From Psychrobacter sp. 5A.1 (lineage in GTDB: Bacteria > Pseudomonadota > Gammaproteobacteria > Pseudomonadales > Moraxellaceae), in NCBI RefSeq assembly GCF_030407455.1, contig NZ_JASDDJ010000003.1, positions 1 to 64,000 of the forward strand: a DNA stretch of 64,000 nucleotides. Reading direction: 5' to 3'. The position numbers and the translations under genes were made by a program. Below, in pieces: positions 48,329-54,178 of this stretch (its first letter is position 1; each line of letters begins with the position of its first letter). The notes beneath the pieces were generated by a model. That model was not told the DNA's origin and searched no databases. It was given only the letters and a program-made list of their open reading frames with translations.

Positions 48329-49243
48329 TTGATGACTGCTTTTTATATCTCTCAAAGTGTTAAAAACATGTCTACTGATACGTTGTTTGTGATTGCCCTG
48401 ATGACGGTGGTCAGTTTGGTTTGGGGCATACTGGCTATCCCTCGTCTACGTACTCGCTTGCCTAAGATTTATCTGATTGCTCGCTCTTGGTGGCTCATGT
48501 TAGTGGCTCTGTGCGCATGCTACGTTATCGCCAAAATAGATAATAGTCAGCATGGCCACCCTTATCAATGGGTACTCATTGCGTTTTTTATGTTAATCGG
48601 GCTACGTGGCTGCTATGAGATTAAACGCGTATGGAGCATATATGACAAAGCGGGGCTGATTAGCAAACTCCAAGCACGCGGGCTACAACCAAAAATAATA
48701 CCTGATAAACCAAAATCAGTACTGATACACGCCTATACGCGTCTCAATCTATTGGACATCATATTTAGTAGCGCCTTTATCTCTCTGATTCTGAGCCTTA
48801 TCGTATTGCAGCAATTGACATGGCAGCGTGAGCAATATGGCATCTTACTTTTTGTATTTTTTGCCAGCCAGTTCAACGATATTGCCCAATATTTATGTGG
48901 GCGATTACTGGGACGCAAACTGTTTAAGCGAGGTCTCGCTCCTACTGTTAGCCCAAATAAAAGCATTGAAGGGGCGATTTTTGGCAGTTTGTGTGCTGCT
49001 ATATTGGCTTCATCGTTAGGATTATGGCTCACGCCTTTTAGCGGGTGGCTTTGTTTATTAGCAGCCTACGGTTTGGCAGTTAGTGGTATCGCGGGAGATT
49101 TATTAGAGTCAGCATTTAAGCGTCAACATGGCGTAAAAGACACTGGAACGATGCTCGCTGGACATGGCGGCGTATTAGATCGGATAGACAGCTTACTGAT
49201 TGGAGTGCCCGTATTTACCTTGCTTTATTGGCTGTTTGGATGA
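48329..49243 (+). CDS. CdsA-like phosphatidate cytidylyltransferase (YnbB type)
   Basis: Integral membrane protein of 304 residues with about eight hydrophobic segments. The C-terminal signature of CDP-diglyceride synthases is clear: GDLLESAFKRQHGVKDTGTM followed by GHGGVLDRIDSLLIG (about residues 255-290). Converts phosphatidate and CTP to CDP-diacylglycerol by family. The position, next to the lipid genes at 49323-54178 and not beside the usual uppS-dxr-rseP genes, suggests a second, dedicated copy like YnbB of E. coli, the partner of the YnbA-like domain encoded on the opposite strand. It is 40 bases downstream of nadB and may be read through from it. An in-frame ATG at 48368 is a second possible start. 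Confidence 0.85.
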   Translation: MMTAFYISQSVKNMSTDTLFVIALMTVVSLVWGILAIPRLRTRLPKIYLIARSWWLMLVALCACYVIAKIDNSQHGHPYQWVLIAFFMLIGLRGCYEIKRVWSIYDKAGLISKLQARGLQPKIIPDKPKSVLIHAYTRLNLLDIIFSSAFISLILSLIVLQQLTWQREQYGILLFVFFASQFNDIAQYLCGRLLGRKLFKRGLAPTVSPNKSIEGAIFGSLCAAILASSLGLWLTPFSGWLCLLAAYGLAVSGIAGDLLESAFKRQHGVKDTGTMLAGHGGVLDRIDSLLIGVPVFTLLYWLFG

Positions 49244-49254
49244 GCAGCCCATTT

Positions 49255-49330
49255 TTGATTAGGACAGTGCTTGATTAAGACAATGCTTGATTAAGACAAT
49301 GCTTGATTAAGACAATGCTTGGTTAAGAAG
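49255..49330. repeat. 16-bp tandem repeat, about 4.5 units
   Basis: Units of TTGATTAAGACAATGC at 49271, 49287 and 49303, preceded by a variant unit (TTGATTAGGACAGTGC) at 49255 and followed by a partial one running into the end of the next gene. The unit length is not a multiple of three and the block fills the 79-base gap between converging genes. Confidence 0.9.
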
Positions 49331-50138
49331 ACTTATCTAGCTTACTGCGCAATATCCAATTGAGTAATGGCTTGGGTAAGTGGTTTAACGCCCGAGTAAT
49401 ATAGCGCATTGAGCGTGGGAATATTGCCAATGCAACATCATTATAAATCGCCTGCATAACCTCATCAACCGCTGTTGGCGTGCTCATGATAAAGGGTTTA
49501 TGACTGGCATCACCGTCATTTAAATCGCGCAATGCTTGGGTATCGATATAGCCTGAGGCAATACAATTCACTTGGATATTATAAGGCGCAAGTGCTGCTC
49601 GATAAGCGCTAGCAGCCGCAATCATCGCGCGCTTACTCTTTGCATAAAGACTGGCATAAGGATAATCCATCGTGCCAGCGATAGAGGCAATACAAATTAG
49701 GCTTGGTCTATCGCTTTTGCTAACGCCCAATGACTGATGTTGCTGCTTTGACTGCGCGCTTGCCCATCTAAAAACCTGCGCAAATGCCTGCAAGTTAATC
49801 GCTAGCATTTTATCACTGTCTGCTTGGTTTAGATGATGAACACGCTCATTGGTATAACTGCCAGCACTATAGACAAGCCTTTGAAAGCTTGTAGCTGACA
49901 ATTTATCTAACAAACTCTGTGTTTGGATAACATCCGTTAAGTCGCAAGCATAAGTCACGATGGTAGGATGCTGGTTATTAATGTCGGCTATCTTTGCCTC
50001 GTTACTACCAACAACGCTCACCTGCCAGCCAAGCTGCAAATGATGCAGAGCCAATGCCAAGCCAAGACCACTCGTACCACCAACGACAATAATATGCGGC
50101 GTATGATTTTCAGCGGTATCTTCTACGTGAGTTTTCAT
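49323..50138 (-). CDS. Short-chain dehydrogenase/reductase
   Basis: NAD(P)-dependent oxidoreductase of 271 residues of the classical SDR family. The nucleotide-binding motif GGTSGLGLALALH lies near residue 20, the active-site Tyr-x3-Lys is YAKSKRAM near residue 165 with the Ser in ICIASIAGT, and LVYSAGS replaces the usual NNAG. The start ATG overlaps the stop of the patatin-like gene by 4 bases (ATGA), so they are translationally coupled. Substrate unknown; a lipid or fatty-acyl substrate is suggested by the neighbours only. There is a membrane-binding or hydrophobic C-terminal stretch (LPKPLLNWILRSKL). Confidence 0.88.
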   Translation of the reverse strand: MKTHVEDTAENHTPHIIVVGGTSGLGLALALHHLQLGWQVSVVGSNEAKIADINNQHPTIVTYACDLTDVIQTQSLLDKLSATSFQRLVYSAGSYTNERVHHLNQADSDKMLAINLQAFAQVFRWASAQSKQQHQSLGVSKSDRPSLICIASIAGTMDYPYASLYAKSKRAMIAAASAYRAALAPYNIQVNCIASGYIDTQALRDLNDGDASHKPFIMSTPTAVDEVMQAIYNDVALAIFPRSMRYITRALNHLPKPLLNWILRSKLDKSS

Positions 50139-51322
50139 AAATTATGCTGCTGTATGTAATCAGCCGTACGCTGGTAGCCATATTGCCATTGCGCCTGCAT
50201 TTGCTGCACAAAGCCGTCGTAATTACTGTGTATCAGCTCAACAGTCATTTGTTTTATATTAAAACGCTTTTGCACATTTTGGCCCGCTAACTGCTGCGCA
50301 TTATCGGCAAAGGGTAGCCAGTGTAGCCAATGTTTTTCGCTAGCAGTATTAGTGTGCGACGACACTTCCATCGGTTGATAACCGTGTACTGCTGCCAGTC
50401 GCTCATTAGGATCAAAACCAAAAACACGCTGAATCGCGGGAGCAGCCAGCCATGAGTCATACCCTGCCTTAGTCTCTGCAAATACGCTATCACCCAACTG
50501 ACAGGCTAGCTCAATCGGTGTGAGATTAATCACCCCACCTAAGCACCAGCCAACCGCTGTGATGTGTGTGGGCGGCAAGTAATACATGTCTGCCATAGAA
50601 GCACGAACCACTGGGGCAAAATCCCATTGTGTTTCTACCTTTACAGACGGATGTATGCGCTCATTTGCAAATGCCTGCGCTGGTGATCTCAATTTCTCGT
50701 CAGTCAGATTTGATGCAGAATGCTCAAAGCGTGGCGGTGCAAATAATAATTCTTGTAGCTTTAATTGTTCATTATATAAACCATCAATAGGCGCTTGATA
50801 AAGACGACTGGCAATGATGGCTATCTCAGGGATGCTAGCATTAGACTGACGACTGCCATTTTCGCTAGATGCAAAGCTAGACAGCTCATCAAGCCATCGC
50901 GCCTCGTCATCGATACGAAACATAGCCAACTGCTGTAACTCGTCTAATAATTGCCCATAGCTGTCTGCTTGCTGCTGTCTTTGTCCATTGCCTTGTTGCT
51001 TTGACAATCGCCAACGGTTGAGCGCACTGGTCATATAACGCATTTTTGCACGCCTGTTGGCTTCATCTGGCGCGACATGCCTAATCGCAGCAATGGTACG
51101 AGACAATTCGCGACTGCACATCAGCGCTTGCAAATCTTTGGGGTCAGGCGCAAGTTGCACCAAGTAAGCGGATAAGCTCCCACCGCAAGTACCGACAATA
51201 ATATCTGGCGTCAAATCATGTGCCACTAGGGCTGCATAACTACCCAGATAGTAACCAAAACGTGAGCCACCTCCGGAAAAAAGTTGGACACGCTCGTACG
51301 GCTTGGTACGGTTATTAGTCAT
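50135..51322 (-). CDS. Patatin-like protein with substituted catalytic residues
   Basis: 395 residues. The patatin fold is recognised from the glycine-rich oxyanion loop FSGGGSRFGYYLG (about residues 15-27), the nucleophile elbow GTCGGSLSA and the block VVRASMADMYYLPP followed by LGGVINLTPIELA. In active patatin phospholipases the elbow is GxSxG and the second block has DG(G/A). Here the nucleophile Ser is Cys46 and the Asp is Leu261, so both members of the Ser-Asp dyad are replaced. It is either a pseudoenzyme or works by a different route. Starts three bases after the fusion gene at 51326 and is coupled to the SDR gene downstream. Confidence 0.85.
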   Translation of the reverse strand: MTNNRTKPYERVQLFSGGGSRFGYYLGSYAALVAHDLTPDIIVGTCGGSLSAYLVQLAPDPKDLQALMCSRELSRTIAAIRHVAPDEANRRAKMRYMTSALNRWRLSKQQGNGQRQQQADSYGQLLDELQQLAMFRIDDEARWLDELSSFASSENGSRQSNASIPEIAIIASRLYQAPIDGLYNEQLKLQELLFAPPRFEHSASNLTDEKLRSPAQAFANERIHPSVKVETQWDFAPVVRASMADMYYLPPTHITAVGWCLGGVINLTPIELACQLGDSVFAETKAGYDSWLAAPAIQRVFGFDPNERLAAVHGYQPMEVSSHTNTASEKHWLHWLPFADNAQQLAGQNVQKRFNIKQMTVELIHSNYDGFVQQMQAQWQYGYQRTADYIQQHNL

Positions 51323-51325
51323 TTG

Positions 51326-54178
51326 TTACTTATCATCGATTGGTGCCGTTTTAATCGCCAATGATACGGTAAAGATACCAAAACGGTCGATACGCATGGC
51401 GACTTTCTTGAAGCCAGCACGCTCAACCAATTGATCCATCTCGGCTTGCGAGCGACAACGCATCACCCAACTGCTGCCACGATGATTGTTCAACGTCTTA
51501 CTGATAAACTCTTGCTCAGGATGCCACGGCTGATTGGTATAAATTAAATAGCCATCCGCTTTTAAACTGTCATAAATCCCCGCCAATGCCGTTTCGGGTA
51601 GTGTATTGTCAGAAAACAATTCAAACACGCCTGAGCTGATGGCAATATCAAAGCCTGACGTTTTCAACGGTTTTCCTTTAACGTTTGTGCTTACCTTCTC
51701 TACCGACTGATAACTTTTGGCATCAAACGCATCCTTTTGACAAGCAATGACTCGATCAGCAATCGCTAACTGCTCCGCTTTTGCTTGCAGTGCCTGAATA
51801 TTATGCATCTCATAATCTCGTAGCTCCGCATGCAAATCGGTAAACGCTGTCAACAAATCAAATGCGTAAAAACCATGGCCACTAGCGATATCCAACAGTT
51901 TTGGTTGATATGGTTTGGCGTTACTCTGGTTTTTCTCTTCGATATCTGCGAGTGCTAAACGTGCCAGCTCTAATATATGCTCACGGCGAATACGAATACC
52001 TTGCCAGCCGATATTGTTCAAATAAAATTTATCGATTGCGTGACCAAATTTATTCTGACCACTGGGCTGATTATAATAAACATGATCCAGCGAATGACCC
52101 GAGTCAAATCCATGCTCAAGCCCTGTCGCAATCGCATCGCTGACATGACCGAACTTCTGCATCGCAAAACGCGTAATGGCAAAACTCGGATTAAACGGCT
52201 TAATCGCTAAGCGGTCTACCTTGTCTTTACTGGCGCTATTCAAATGAGCGGTACTCAAATCAGGTGCTTGGACGTGTGTGCTAAATACTTGCTCAGCGAA
52301 ATCAATGCAGTCGGAAAAGACATCTGCTTTATTGGTCTCATGAAAAATCGCATGATAGCTGTCTGGGTACAACTGCCAGCGTTTGGTAGGTGTATTAATC
52401 GCTTCATAAAACGTGCGTTCAGCCTGCTTATCGACCACATAGTCCTTGCCTGCACACAATACAAACGTCGGTACAGTGATAGCCCCTGCATCGTCTAGCA
52501 AGCGCTGACCCGTCGCATGGGTATCGATGAGTAAGTCGGTTGAAATGCTATTCGATATCAATGGATCAGCATTATAAGCTTGCTGCGCGTCTTTATCATG
52601 AGTCAATACTTGCGCTTTGACATAGCTACTAACACGCGACATCAAACCCAATGTCCGTGCTACCTTTAATGACGGTATCGCAAAAGGCATATATAAGCGA
52701 ATGCTTAGCGCAGGTGTGCCGAGTATCATCCCGCGAATACTGGGCGCATAGTCATGTACCCATGCTGCTGCAAGCACCGCACCGATACTGCTGGCGACGA
52801 TTAAGGTATCCTCGATAGCAATACCCGTTTGCCCGATGACCAACTGCACAAAACCGTCTAAATCGCGCTCAAGCTCAGTGACGCTCTCGGCATGGTCTTT
52901 GATACCACCCGAGCGCCCATTGCCGCGCGCATCCCAAGCAAAGACTTGATAGCCAGCTGTTGCAAACTGCTCTCCTAACTCTGCTAATCGACCCGAATGC
53001 TCGTGTCCACGATGCAATAGAATAACTTGACGCAGAGGCTGACTGGCTTTGTTTATGTGCGATTTTTTTATATCGGCTAAAGGCATCGTTAACCAATAGC
53101 GATAATAAATAGCAGTGCCGTCATAAGCGTTGTAGCAACTTTCACCATTTATGATTTTGATTACAGGCGAGTCAAAACCAATGTCATCTTGTGCGAGTGT
53201 TGATTGGCTCTTGAGCTGATTTTGGTTATTGAGTTGATCGTTGCTAGGTGTAACGGGCATCGTGTTGGACTCCAAAAAGGAAGTTTGAGTAGCAGAATTT
53301 GACATAGAAAGGGTTGCTGTAGAACCATCAACAGATAACGTATCAGCTTGACCAAACTCAGTATGACGACTCATGAGAGAAATGGAGTTATCTGACGCTT
53401 CTTTGGTCAATTTAAAACTGTCTGAATTCACAGACCGAAGCAAAGGTGGGTCACGCATCAAGTACAACGCTGCCATATAACGCATGCGGTTGAGGCAAGT
53501 CTTTAGTAGCATTACCTCTGTCAGTATAAATAATCGACCCTTTCTGATATGAGGCAATGACATCGGTGCTTTAATACATACTGGTGCTTTAGCTTTAACA
53601 CCCATAAAAGCACCAAGCACGCCTAGCACCAAAGCACGATCACTTTTGCCCAATGGCCCTTGGTTAGCCCGCATGCCTAACATCGTATGGCTAGCGATAC
53701 CAAGTAGCTCGGTGCCAATACTAAGCGCGATGAGACTGGCAATATGGTGCTGATGGGTTGGTACATTAGTTAATACATTAGCCGATGAATTAGTCGGTGA
53801 ATCAACTACTGCGCTTGAGCATTTTTTATTACTAACATGAGGGGTCAGGCTCGCCAATAATGCCGTATCGGCAATAATATCGCCCATTTCATTCAGCATG
53901 GCTCCTAGCGTTGACGCCTGACCATGCTCACGCGCCATCATACCGTCGATGGCATTGAGCGCCATACGCACGAACAATGATGATGGCAGTAAAAGCCATA
54001 GCGCTTGCTGCTCAGCTGCTGGCTTGGCAATCACATACGCTGTACCCACACTCAATAATACTGCGGATACGGTTACTTGATTGGCCGTAAAATTTTTCTC
54101 AACTAAGGTATCGCTTATCGGGCGCAATTGATCTTGAAATTGAGATTTGAGCTGATATAGCGACATGATGCTAGCCAA
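51326..54178 (-). CDS. Trifunctional fusion: CDP-alcohol phosphotransferase, alpha/beta hydrolase and methyltransferase
   Basis: 950 residues. Residues 1-235: membrane CDP-alcohol phosphatidyltransferase of YnbA type, with RMALNAIDGMMAREHGQ, LGAMLNEMGDIIAD and GPLGKSDRALVLG; in the signature the first and third Asp are Asn75 and Asn96, as in the YnbA group as I recall it. Residues 235-340: Ser/Asn-rich linker. Residues 345-640: alpha/beta hydrolase of the monoacylglycerol-lipase type (LHRGHEHSGR, WDARGNGRS, elbow VASSIGAVLAAAW, KDYVVD, SYHAIFHE). Residues 700-945: class I SAM methyltransferase (LLDIASGHGFYAFDLL). The hydrolase-methyltransferase part corresponds to YnbC of E. coli. The gene is first in an operon with the patatin-like and SDR genes. 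Substrates unknown; a special phospholipid head group is the inference. Confidence 0.87.
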   Translation of the reverse strand: MASIMSLYQLKSQFQDQLRPISDTLVEKNFTANQVTVSAVLLSVGTAYVIAKPAAEQQALWLLLPSSLFVRMALNAIDGMMAREHGQASTLGAMLNEMGDIIADTALLASLTPHVSNKKCSSAVVDSPTNSSANVLTNVPTHQHHIASLIALSIGTELLGIASHTMLGMRANQGPLGKSDRALVLGVLGAFMGVKAKAPVCIKAPMSLPHIRKGRLFILTEVMLLKTCLNRMRYMAALYLMRDPPLLRSVNSDSFKLTKEASDNSISLMSRHTEFGQADTLSVDGSTATLSMSNSATQTSFLESNTMPVTPSNDQLNNQNQLKSQSTLAQDDIGFDSPVIKIINGESCYNAYDGTAIYYRYWLTMPLADIKKSHINKASQPLRQVILLHRGHEHSGRLAELGEQFATAGYQVFAWDARGNGRSGGIKDHAESVTELERDLDGFVQLVIGQTGIAIEDTLIVASSIGAVLAAAWVHDYAPSIRGMILGTPALSIRLYMPFAIPSLKVARTLGLMSRVSSYVKAQVLTHDKDAQQAYNADPLISNSISTDLLIDTHATGQRLLDDAGAITVPTFVLCAGKDYVVDKQAERTFYEAINTPTKRWQLYPDSYHAIFHETNKADVFSDCIDFAEQVFSTHVQAPDLSTAHLNSASKDKVDRLAIKPFNPSFAITRFAMQKFGHVSDAIATGLEHGFDSGHSLDHVYYNQPSGQNKFGHAIDKFYLNNIGWQGIRIRREHILELARLALADIEEKNQSNAKPYQPKLLDIASGHGFYAFDLLTAFTDLHAELRDYEMHNIQALQAKAEQLAIADRVIACQKDAFDAKSYQSVEKVSTNVKGKPLKTSGFDIAISSGVFELFSDNTLPETALAGIYDSLKADGYLIYTNQPWHPEQEFISKTLNNHRGSSWVMRCRSQAEMDQLVERAGFKKVAMRIDRFGIFTVSLAIKTAPIDDK

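Follow-up and report, generated by a model that had tools for sequence, protein, structure and literature searches.

Four neighbouring genes of Psychrobacter sp. 5A.1, at positions 48329-54178 of the 64,000-nucleotide stretch of contig NZ_JASDDJ010000003.1 that we analysed (the window), form a real, dedicated module related to ynbABCD of Escherichia coli. They encode a second CdsA similar to YnbB (cdsA2), a protein in which the counterparts of YnbA and YnbC are joined, a patatin-family protein and a short-chain dehydrogenase/reductase (SDR). We give about an even chance to the explanation that they constitute an accessory, non-housekeeping pathway of the ynb type that would make and tailor a phospholipid, with a cysteine-bearing patatin, together with the SDR, in the role that a PlsC-like acyltransferase has elsewhere among ynb modules. 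The initial annotation of this locus had likewise proposed a lipid module; that reading gains from the conservation and dedication of the genes, the presence of a second CdsA beside the housekeeping one and strong co-occurrence, but the gene list was incomplete, as a YnbD-like gene lies elsewhere.

In the family, 56 of the 199 genomes sampled contain the Methyltransf_20 domain (PF12147). For 55 of these 56 places we took stretches of up to 8 kb per side where the contig allowed, the 56th being the window itself; four stretches around cdsA2 were added, and all were annotated with proteins of the window, E. coli and Citrobacter. In every one of the 38 same-genus genomes with PF12147, window included, a single open reading frame (ORF) carries all three domains (CDP-alcohol phosphotransferase, alpha/beta hydrolase and methyltransferase), and the fusion, patatin, SDR and cdsA2 lie together within the stretch searched in 36 of the 38; the genes are thus more than occasionally adjacent in relatives, a concern that the initial annotation had raised. 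The module lies between a nadB-like and a lysO-like gene in 34 of the 38 (we assigned the names of the flanking genes nadA, nadB and lysO by eye). Two genomes depart from the four-gene set and retain cdsA2 next to nadB: one has the fusion and patatin near a ggt-like gene, also named by eye (G023), and the other the fusion alone (G070). A second chromosomal fusion site near a ggt-like gene was seen in two genomes (L056, L079), suggesting that the module has moved about in the genus.

Co-occurrence gave the same picture. Among 66 same-genus genomes, 38 with and 28 without the fusion, a second CdsA (called at more than 200 bits in total, versus about 85 for the housekeeping gene) was present in 38/38 with the fusion versus 2/28 without (p = 2e-16), the patatin (E <= 1e-10) in 37/38 versus 0/28 (p = 8e-18) and a YnbD match (E <= 1e-5) in 25/38 versus 4/28 (p = 4e-5), by Fisher tests that ignore shared descent. 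Chance adjacency is ruled out by these linkage and co-occurrence counts. In one genome without the fusion (G136; L095 7610-8569), cdsA2 stands alone between the nadB-like and lysO-like genes, and its CdsA signature GHGG..DR is degraded to EHSG..DK, the sole row of 58 without HGG. Decay of YnbD in fusion-less genomes was not used as evidence; the gene is split in G088 and represented by fragments only in G057.

All four predicted ORFs were found in place, and all family matches in the window exceed the curated Pfam cut-offs. The product of cdsA2 (48329..49243, plus strand) matches CTP_transf_1 (E = 1.2e-40, 140.4 bits), carries the motif SAFKRQHGVKDTGTMLAGHGGVLDRID and has the C-terminal CdsA/YnbB signature; it is predicted to be a CTP:phosphatidate cytidylyltransferase that makes CDP-diacylglycerol. 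That this gene is simply the main cdsA, as the initial annotation had allowed, is ruled out by a housekeeping-type cdsA with a stronger family match on another contig (G000:C1:119067-119831).

The YnbA-YnbC fusion (51326..54166, minus strand) is 946 residues long when counted from the ATG at 54166, the likely translation start, since this residue is the first one of related YnbA proteins; the ORF itself (950 residues) is open from a TTG at 54178. The YnbA-like CDP-alcohol phosphotransferase domain (53489..54166) passes the CDP-OH_P_transf cut-off narrowly (24.3 versus 22 bits, at the N terminus of the 950-residue ORF; E. coli YnbA scores 36.1 bits) and is 37% and 43% identical to YnbA of an E. 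coli and a Citrobacter record. It is followed by an alpha/beta hydrolase domain resembling monoacylglycerol lipases (52331..53041, residues 380-616; Hydrolase_4, E = 7.1e-56, 189.6 bits), which matches PDB entry 7p0y (E = 3.4e-17) and retains the Ser, Asp and His motifs, and by the Methyltransf_20 domain (51353..52303, residues 626-942; E = 6.2e-85, 285.5 bits), which has an S-adenosylmethionine (SAM)-type motif and whose profile gave just weak matches, to varied SAM methyltransferases. The initial annotation had described the first functions as three separate genes in E. coli, ynbA, ynbB and ynbC. The likeness to ynb stands, but the annotation of E. coli ynbC already combines hydrolase and methyltransferase in one bifunctional protein; relative to E. 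coli, two genes are fused, not three, and the novelty is the join between YnbA and YnbC only.

The YnbA domain departs from the signature of CDP-alcohol phosphotransferases. Eight signature residues, D1xxD2G1xxAR...G2xxxD3xxxD4, are called absolutely conserved in the passages cited here from PMC4634129, where D1 to D3 coordinate metal and D4 is the likely base. Within the signature of the window protein (53879..53956, minus strand) the first and third aspartates are Asn, as they are in 60/60 rows of our YnbA alignment, in 19/19 of a broader YnbA set and in all YnbA rows examined (for example L033 6001-6606), E. coli included. D2, G1, A, G2 and D4 are retained in all 60 rows, with R in 52 and K in 8; four Oxalobacteraceae rows, with Asn at both D1 and D3, also have Asn for the Arg after the Ala. 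Three other CDP-alcohol phosphotransferases of the window genome keep all four aspartates. The best whole-domain PDB match of a YnbA profile was PgsA1 of Mycobacterium tuberculosis (6h53, E = 5.6e-10), and the HMMER alignment to it displays the same Asp/Asn exchanges. E. coli YnbA gave its best score, below the cut-off, to archaetidylinositol phosphate synthase.

The patatin-family protein (50135..51322, minus strand) belongs to Pfam Patatin (E = 6e-15, 56.4 bits versus a cut-off of 27.7; 9/9 diverse members match at E <= 0.001), and has neither the GxSxG serine nor the DGG/DGA aspartate of patatin-like phospholipases, a feature that goes beyond the initial annotation. Alignments place Cys46 (codon 51185..51187) at the nucleophile and Leu261 (codon 50540..50542) at the dyad aspartate. 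The serine is Cys in 42/42 Moraxellaceae rows. For a broader set we scanned a collection of 84,980 species genomes with two patterns, chosen so that the cysteine and the DGG strand lie outside both, and obtained 69 loci; both patterns were drawn from Cys-bearing members, so that a Ser-bearing sister group without them would escape, and some of the loci come from genomes of the linkage survey, so that the 42-row and 70-row counts are not additive. In the resulting 70-row alignment (69 loci and the window), Cys is found in 68/68 rows with a letter at the position (2/70 are gapped), a GGG-x-R oxyanion motif occurs in the same rows, and the dyad aspartate is absent in 70/70 (L 47, T 8, I 6, M 4, S 3, F 2). 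S242 and D245 do not vary across the 70 rows and are candidates for a new base near Cys46. The two other patatins of the window genome have Ser at the elbow. As a control we took 30 PF01734 loci from this genome and its relatives, a subset of all matches, with a pattern admitting S, C, T or A; the elbow residue was readable in 24 (Ser 21, Cys 2, Thr 1) and unread in 6, both Cys loci bear the motif of the module patatin, and the Thr looks like an off-by-one reading around GTSA. Hydrolysis, one of the roles proposed in the initial annotation, is doubtful for the patatin because the Ser-Asp dyad is missing in aligned relatives. Cysteine at the lipase elbow is the nucleophile of polyhydroxyalkanoate (PHA) synthases, which are acyl transferases, and the exchange hints that the patatin might use a catalytic cysteine to move fatty acids rather than cut them off. 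A patatin with Cys and without Asp would add a new catalytic type to a large enzyme family, and a literature search of titles only found none on cysteine in patatins.

Such patatins occur in four bacterial families (Moraxellaceae, Vibrionaceae, Oxalobacteraceae and Neisseriaceae), and not exclusively with ynb genes. Among 12 Oxalobacteraceae genomes whose cysteine patatin stands alone, 11 lack PF12147, which rules out a strict tie between patatin and ynbC; the remaining one (G584) carries a ynb cluster at another locus. Solo copies include L168, L174, L185, L188 and similar loci (Collimonas, Undibacterium). In a 24-row patatin tree the ynb-linked patatins are not one group apart from the solo ones. 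The family of cysteine patatins has a role outside ynb modules.

Outside the genus, some ynb modules carry the patatin and others PlsC. Four Moraxella genomes (genus g10 of our survey) have YnbA and YnbC as separate ORFs with patatin, SDR, CdsA and a YnbD match nearby. In a further genus of the family, g15, possibly Acinetobacter, counterparts of YnbA, YnbC and YnbD are adjacent in 14/14 genomes (with YnbC split over two ORFs in L042), and PlsC and CdsA are present in 10/14 stretches. All 18 PF12147 genomes of these two genera have a YnbD match. In the class sample, PF12147 reached E <= 0.001 in 16/369 genomes and exceeded the cut-off in 13 of these, with the window counted; seven of nine further loci had YnbA, YnbB and YnbC matches within the stretch, and the remaining two had YnbC and YnbD (L119) or, where the contig end cut the locus, YnbB and YnbC (L124). 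Patatin and SDR share a stretch with matches to ynbA, B, C and D in four Moraxella loci, one from Aliivibrio (L179) and four from Oxalobacteraceae (L169, L171, L172, L177); on a short Alysiella contig (L173) patatin lies beside SDR, with ynbA and ynbC matches elsewhere in the genome. Plasmid ynb modules of Citrobacter and Burkholderia have a PlsC-like acyltransferase as an extra gene. PlsC was found in 16 loci, none of which has the patatin, and the patatin loci that were searched gave no match to a PlsC-like protein. Over the 38 rows of the YnbC tree, 18 come with patatin, 12 with PlsC, none with both and 8 with neither.

In that tree, which drew a program warning about long branches (L121, L122, L179), the window type groups with Moraxella and Aliivibrio, and g15 with E. 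coli, Burkholderia and others. A single clade of Moraxellaceae YnbC rows was rejected (approximately unbiased test, p-AU = 7e-128), and the family therefore holds two different ynb modules. The test did not reject a single clade made up of the G070 row and all rows that bear the patatin (p-AU = 0.226), and thus does not show that ynb modules gained the patatin twice independently.

We infer the chemistry of the module from the family membership of its proteins, and each step below is to be read accordingly. CdsA2 (YnbB) would supply CDP-diacylglycerol. The YnbA half of the fusion would place the phosphatidyl group on a polyol acceptor, which may be phosphorylated like that of phosphatidylinositol-phosphate synthases, and YnbD, encoded elsewhere in the genome, would take the phosphate off; the likeness to inositol-phosphate enzymes together with the YnbD phosphatase suggests such an acceptor, later dephosphorylated. 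The hydrolase half of the fusion might then take off an acyl chain and the cysteine patatin add one by acyl transfer, substituting for the PlsC-like acyltransferase, while the methyltransferase and SDR could modify the head group or chain. That patatin plus SDR take the place of PlsC suggests that the two alternatives serve an acylation step, for which a cysteine nucleophile would be suited, as in the PHA synthases. We offer only tentatively a more specific version, in which a family of cysteine patatins that transfer acyl groups through a thioester replaces PlsC, and in which a CDP-alcohol phosphotransferase with a variant, Asn-Asn metal site builds a phosphatidyl-polyol that is acylated, methylated and as yet undescribed. 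Since the fused module is present in some species of a culturable genus and absent from others (38/66 sampled), its product should be findable by lipid comparison.

Several observations weigh against this proposal. The two missing aspartates leave the transferase activity of YnbA putative and unproven, because these residues are among those termed absolutely conserved. A YnbD match is absent from 13/38 fusion genomes at the threshold given above, one genome without the fusion (G111) retains an intact cdsA2 signature, and 11 Oxalobacteraceae genomes have a solo patatin without PF12147. Eight of the 38 ynb loci have neither PlsC nor patatin in the stretch, and the acyl step may therefore be dispensable or unlinked. 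Finally, the counts take no account of shared descent, and the association of patatin with ynb may have arisen just once, given that a single clade was not rejected.

Other functions can be imagined for the same genes. The most serious concerns the patatin itself, which could be a dead enzyme that merely binds or presents lipid; replacement of both dyad positions in the aligned rows speaks for this, but decay would not give one and the same residue, Cys, in 68/68 rows together with the oxyanion motif, and a residue that serves PHA synthases as nucleophile need not be inert, so that we regard a dead patatin as possible but on the whole unlikely. The module might instead serve lipid turnover, with hydrolase and patatin degrading phospholipid and the YnbA domain a lipid-binding pseudoenzyme. 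The lipase-like hydrolase with its intact motifs and the aspartates missing from YnbA would fit, yet the invariant second and fourth signature aspartates and glycines of YnbA, the lost hydrolytic dyad of the patatin and the second CdsA in 38/38 fusion genomes argue otherwise, and we consider turnover improbable; synthesis is favoured over breakdown because of the dedicated CdsA.

Slightly less credit still goes to a role in feeding or modifying an MPIase-like glycolipid, in which the CdsA would make N-acetylglucosamine-diphosphate-diacylglycerol (GlcNAc-PP-diacylglycerol), a role that has been proposed for E. coli YnbB, while the remaining proteins would trim, acylate or methylate it. According to the passages cited here from PMC6362211, overproduction of E. 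coli YnbB raised MPIase, but YnbB failed to rescue a cdsA knockout (data not shown in that paper); a ynbB knockout retained its MPIase level, and the same authors term the effect of YnbB marginal or auxiliary. This idea also leaves unexplained why a CDP-alcohol phosphotransferase domain is fused to tailoring enzymes. A role in defence, or another mobile-island function that has nothing to do with supplying membrane lipids, is very improbable: the patchy presence of PF12147 in the family and the plasmid copies in Moraxella, Citrobacter and Burkholderia would agree with it, but 34/38 same-genus genomes hold the module at one site, and an anti-phage system was rejected since none of the 5 proteins scanned matched a PADLOC family.

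The remaining features of the locus concern its layout. The SDR gene (49323..50138, minus strand; adh_short, E = 4.3e-29, 101.8 bits) encodes the Gly-rich loop and YxxxK in a 41-row alignment. As the initial annotation had noted for the minus-strand trio, the genes are tightly packed, with a 4-base overlap between patatin and SDR and a 3-base gap between the fusion stop and the patatin start. cdsA2 faces them from the opposite strand and begins 40 bases past the nadB-like ORF. The G+C content of the four genes (0.442-0.475) is close to that of the window (0.439) and of nadAB and the lysO-like gene (about 0.46), and composition gives no signal of foreign origin. On the Moraxella osloensis plasmid pNP7-2 (L036 5983-8451) the fusion gene is broken into two reading frames and adjoined by patatin, SDR, CdsA and PAP2 genes. 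A protein of about 146 residues without a Pfam match lies between ynbD and plsC in g15 loci (L037 6178-6618), and short hypothetical genes follow ynbD in the Citrobacter and Burkholderia modules.

In the alignment of YnbA with the M. tuberculosis phosphatidylinositol-phosphate synthase PgsA1 (6h53), the Arg of GKSDR coincides with the second Arg of ERPER, although the posterior probability is low there; YnbA differs in having Asn at D1 and D3. A nine-member patatin profile aligned to PlpD (5fqu, E = 5.5e-5) matches its GGxxR loop, nucleophile elbow and GG strand, but in two separate, weakly aligned stretches it has Cys opposite the Ser of GTSMG and a Leu-type residue where DGG has its Asp. The modules of g15 and those on Citrobacter and Burkholderia plasmids share the A, B, C and D core with the window genome and differ in having a PlsC-like acyltransferase (in g15, in the 10 of 14 stretches counted above) and no patatin; the g15 YnbC does not form one clade with the window type. 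In open-licence literature, titles and abstract openings gave no proven product of ynbABCD and no function for ynbA or ynbC. The closest parallel is E. coli ynbABCD itself, which combines a CDP-alcohol phosphotransferase, also with Asn at both signature positions, a CdsA paralogue, a hydrolase-methyltransferase and a PAP2/dual-specificity phosphatase. Counterparts of all four are found in the window genome, A, B and C in the window and YnbD on another contig (G000:C92:8639-10246). In E. coli, however, YnbA and YnbC are separate proteins, the four genes stand in one row on one strand and there is neither patatin nor SDR, whereas in Psychrobacter sp. 5A.1 cdsA2 lies on the other strand, YnbD is unlinked, and YnbA and YnbC are a single protein encoded beside a cysteine patatin and an SDR.

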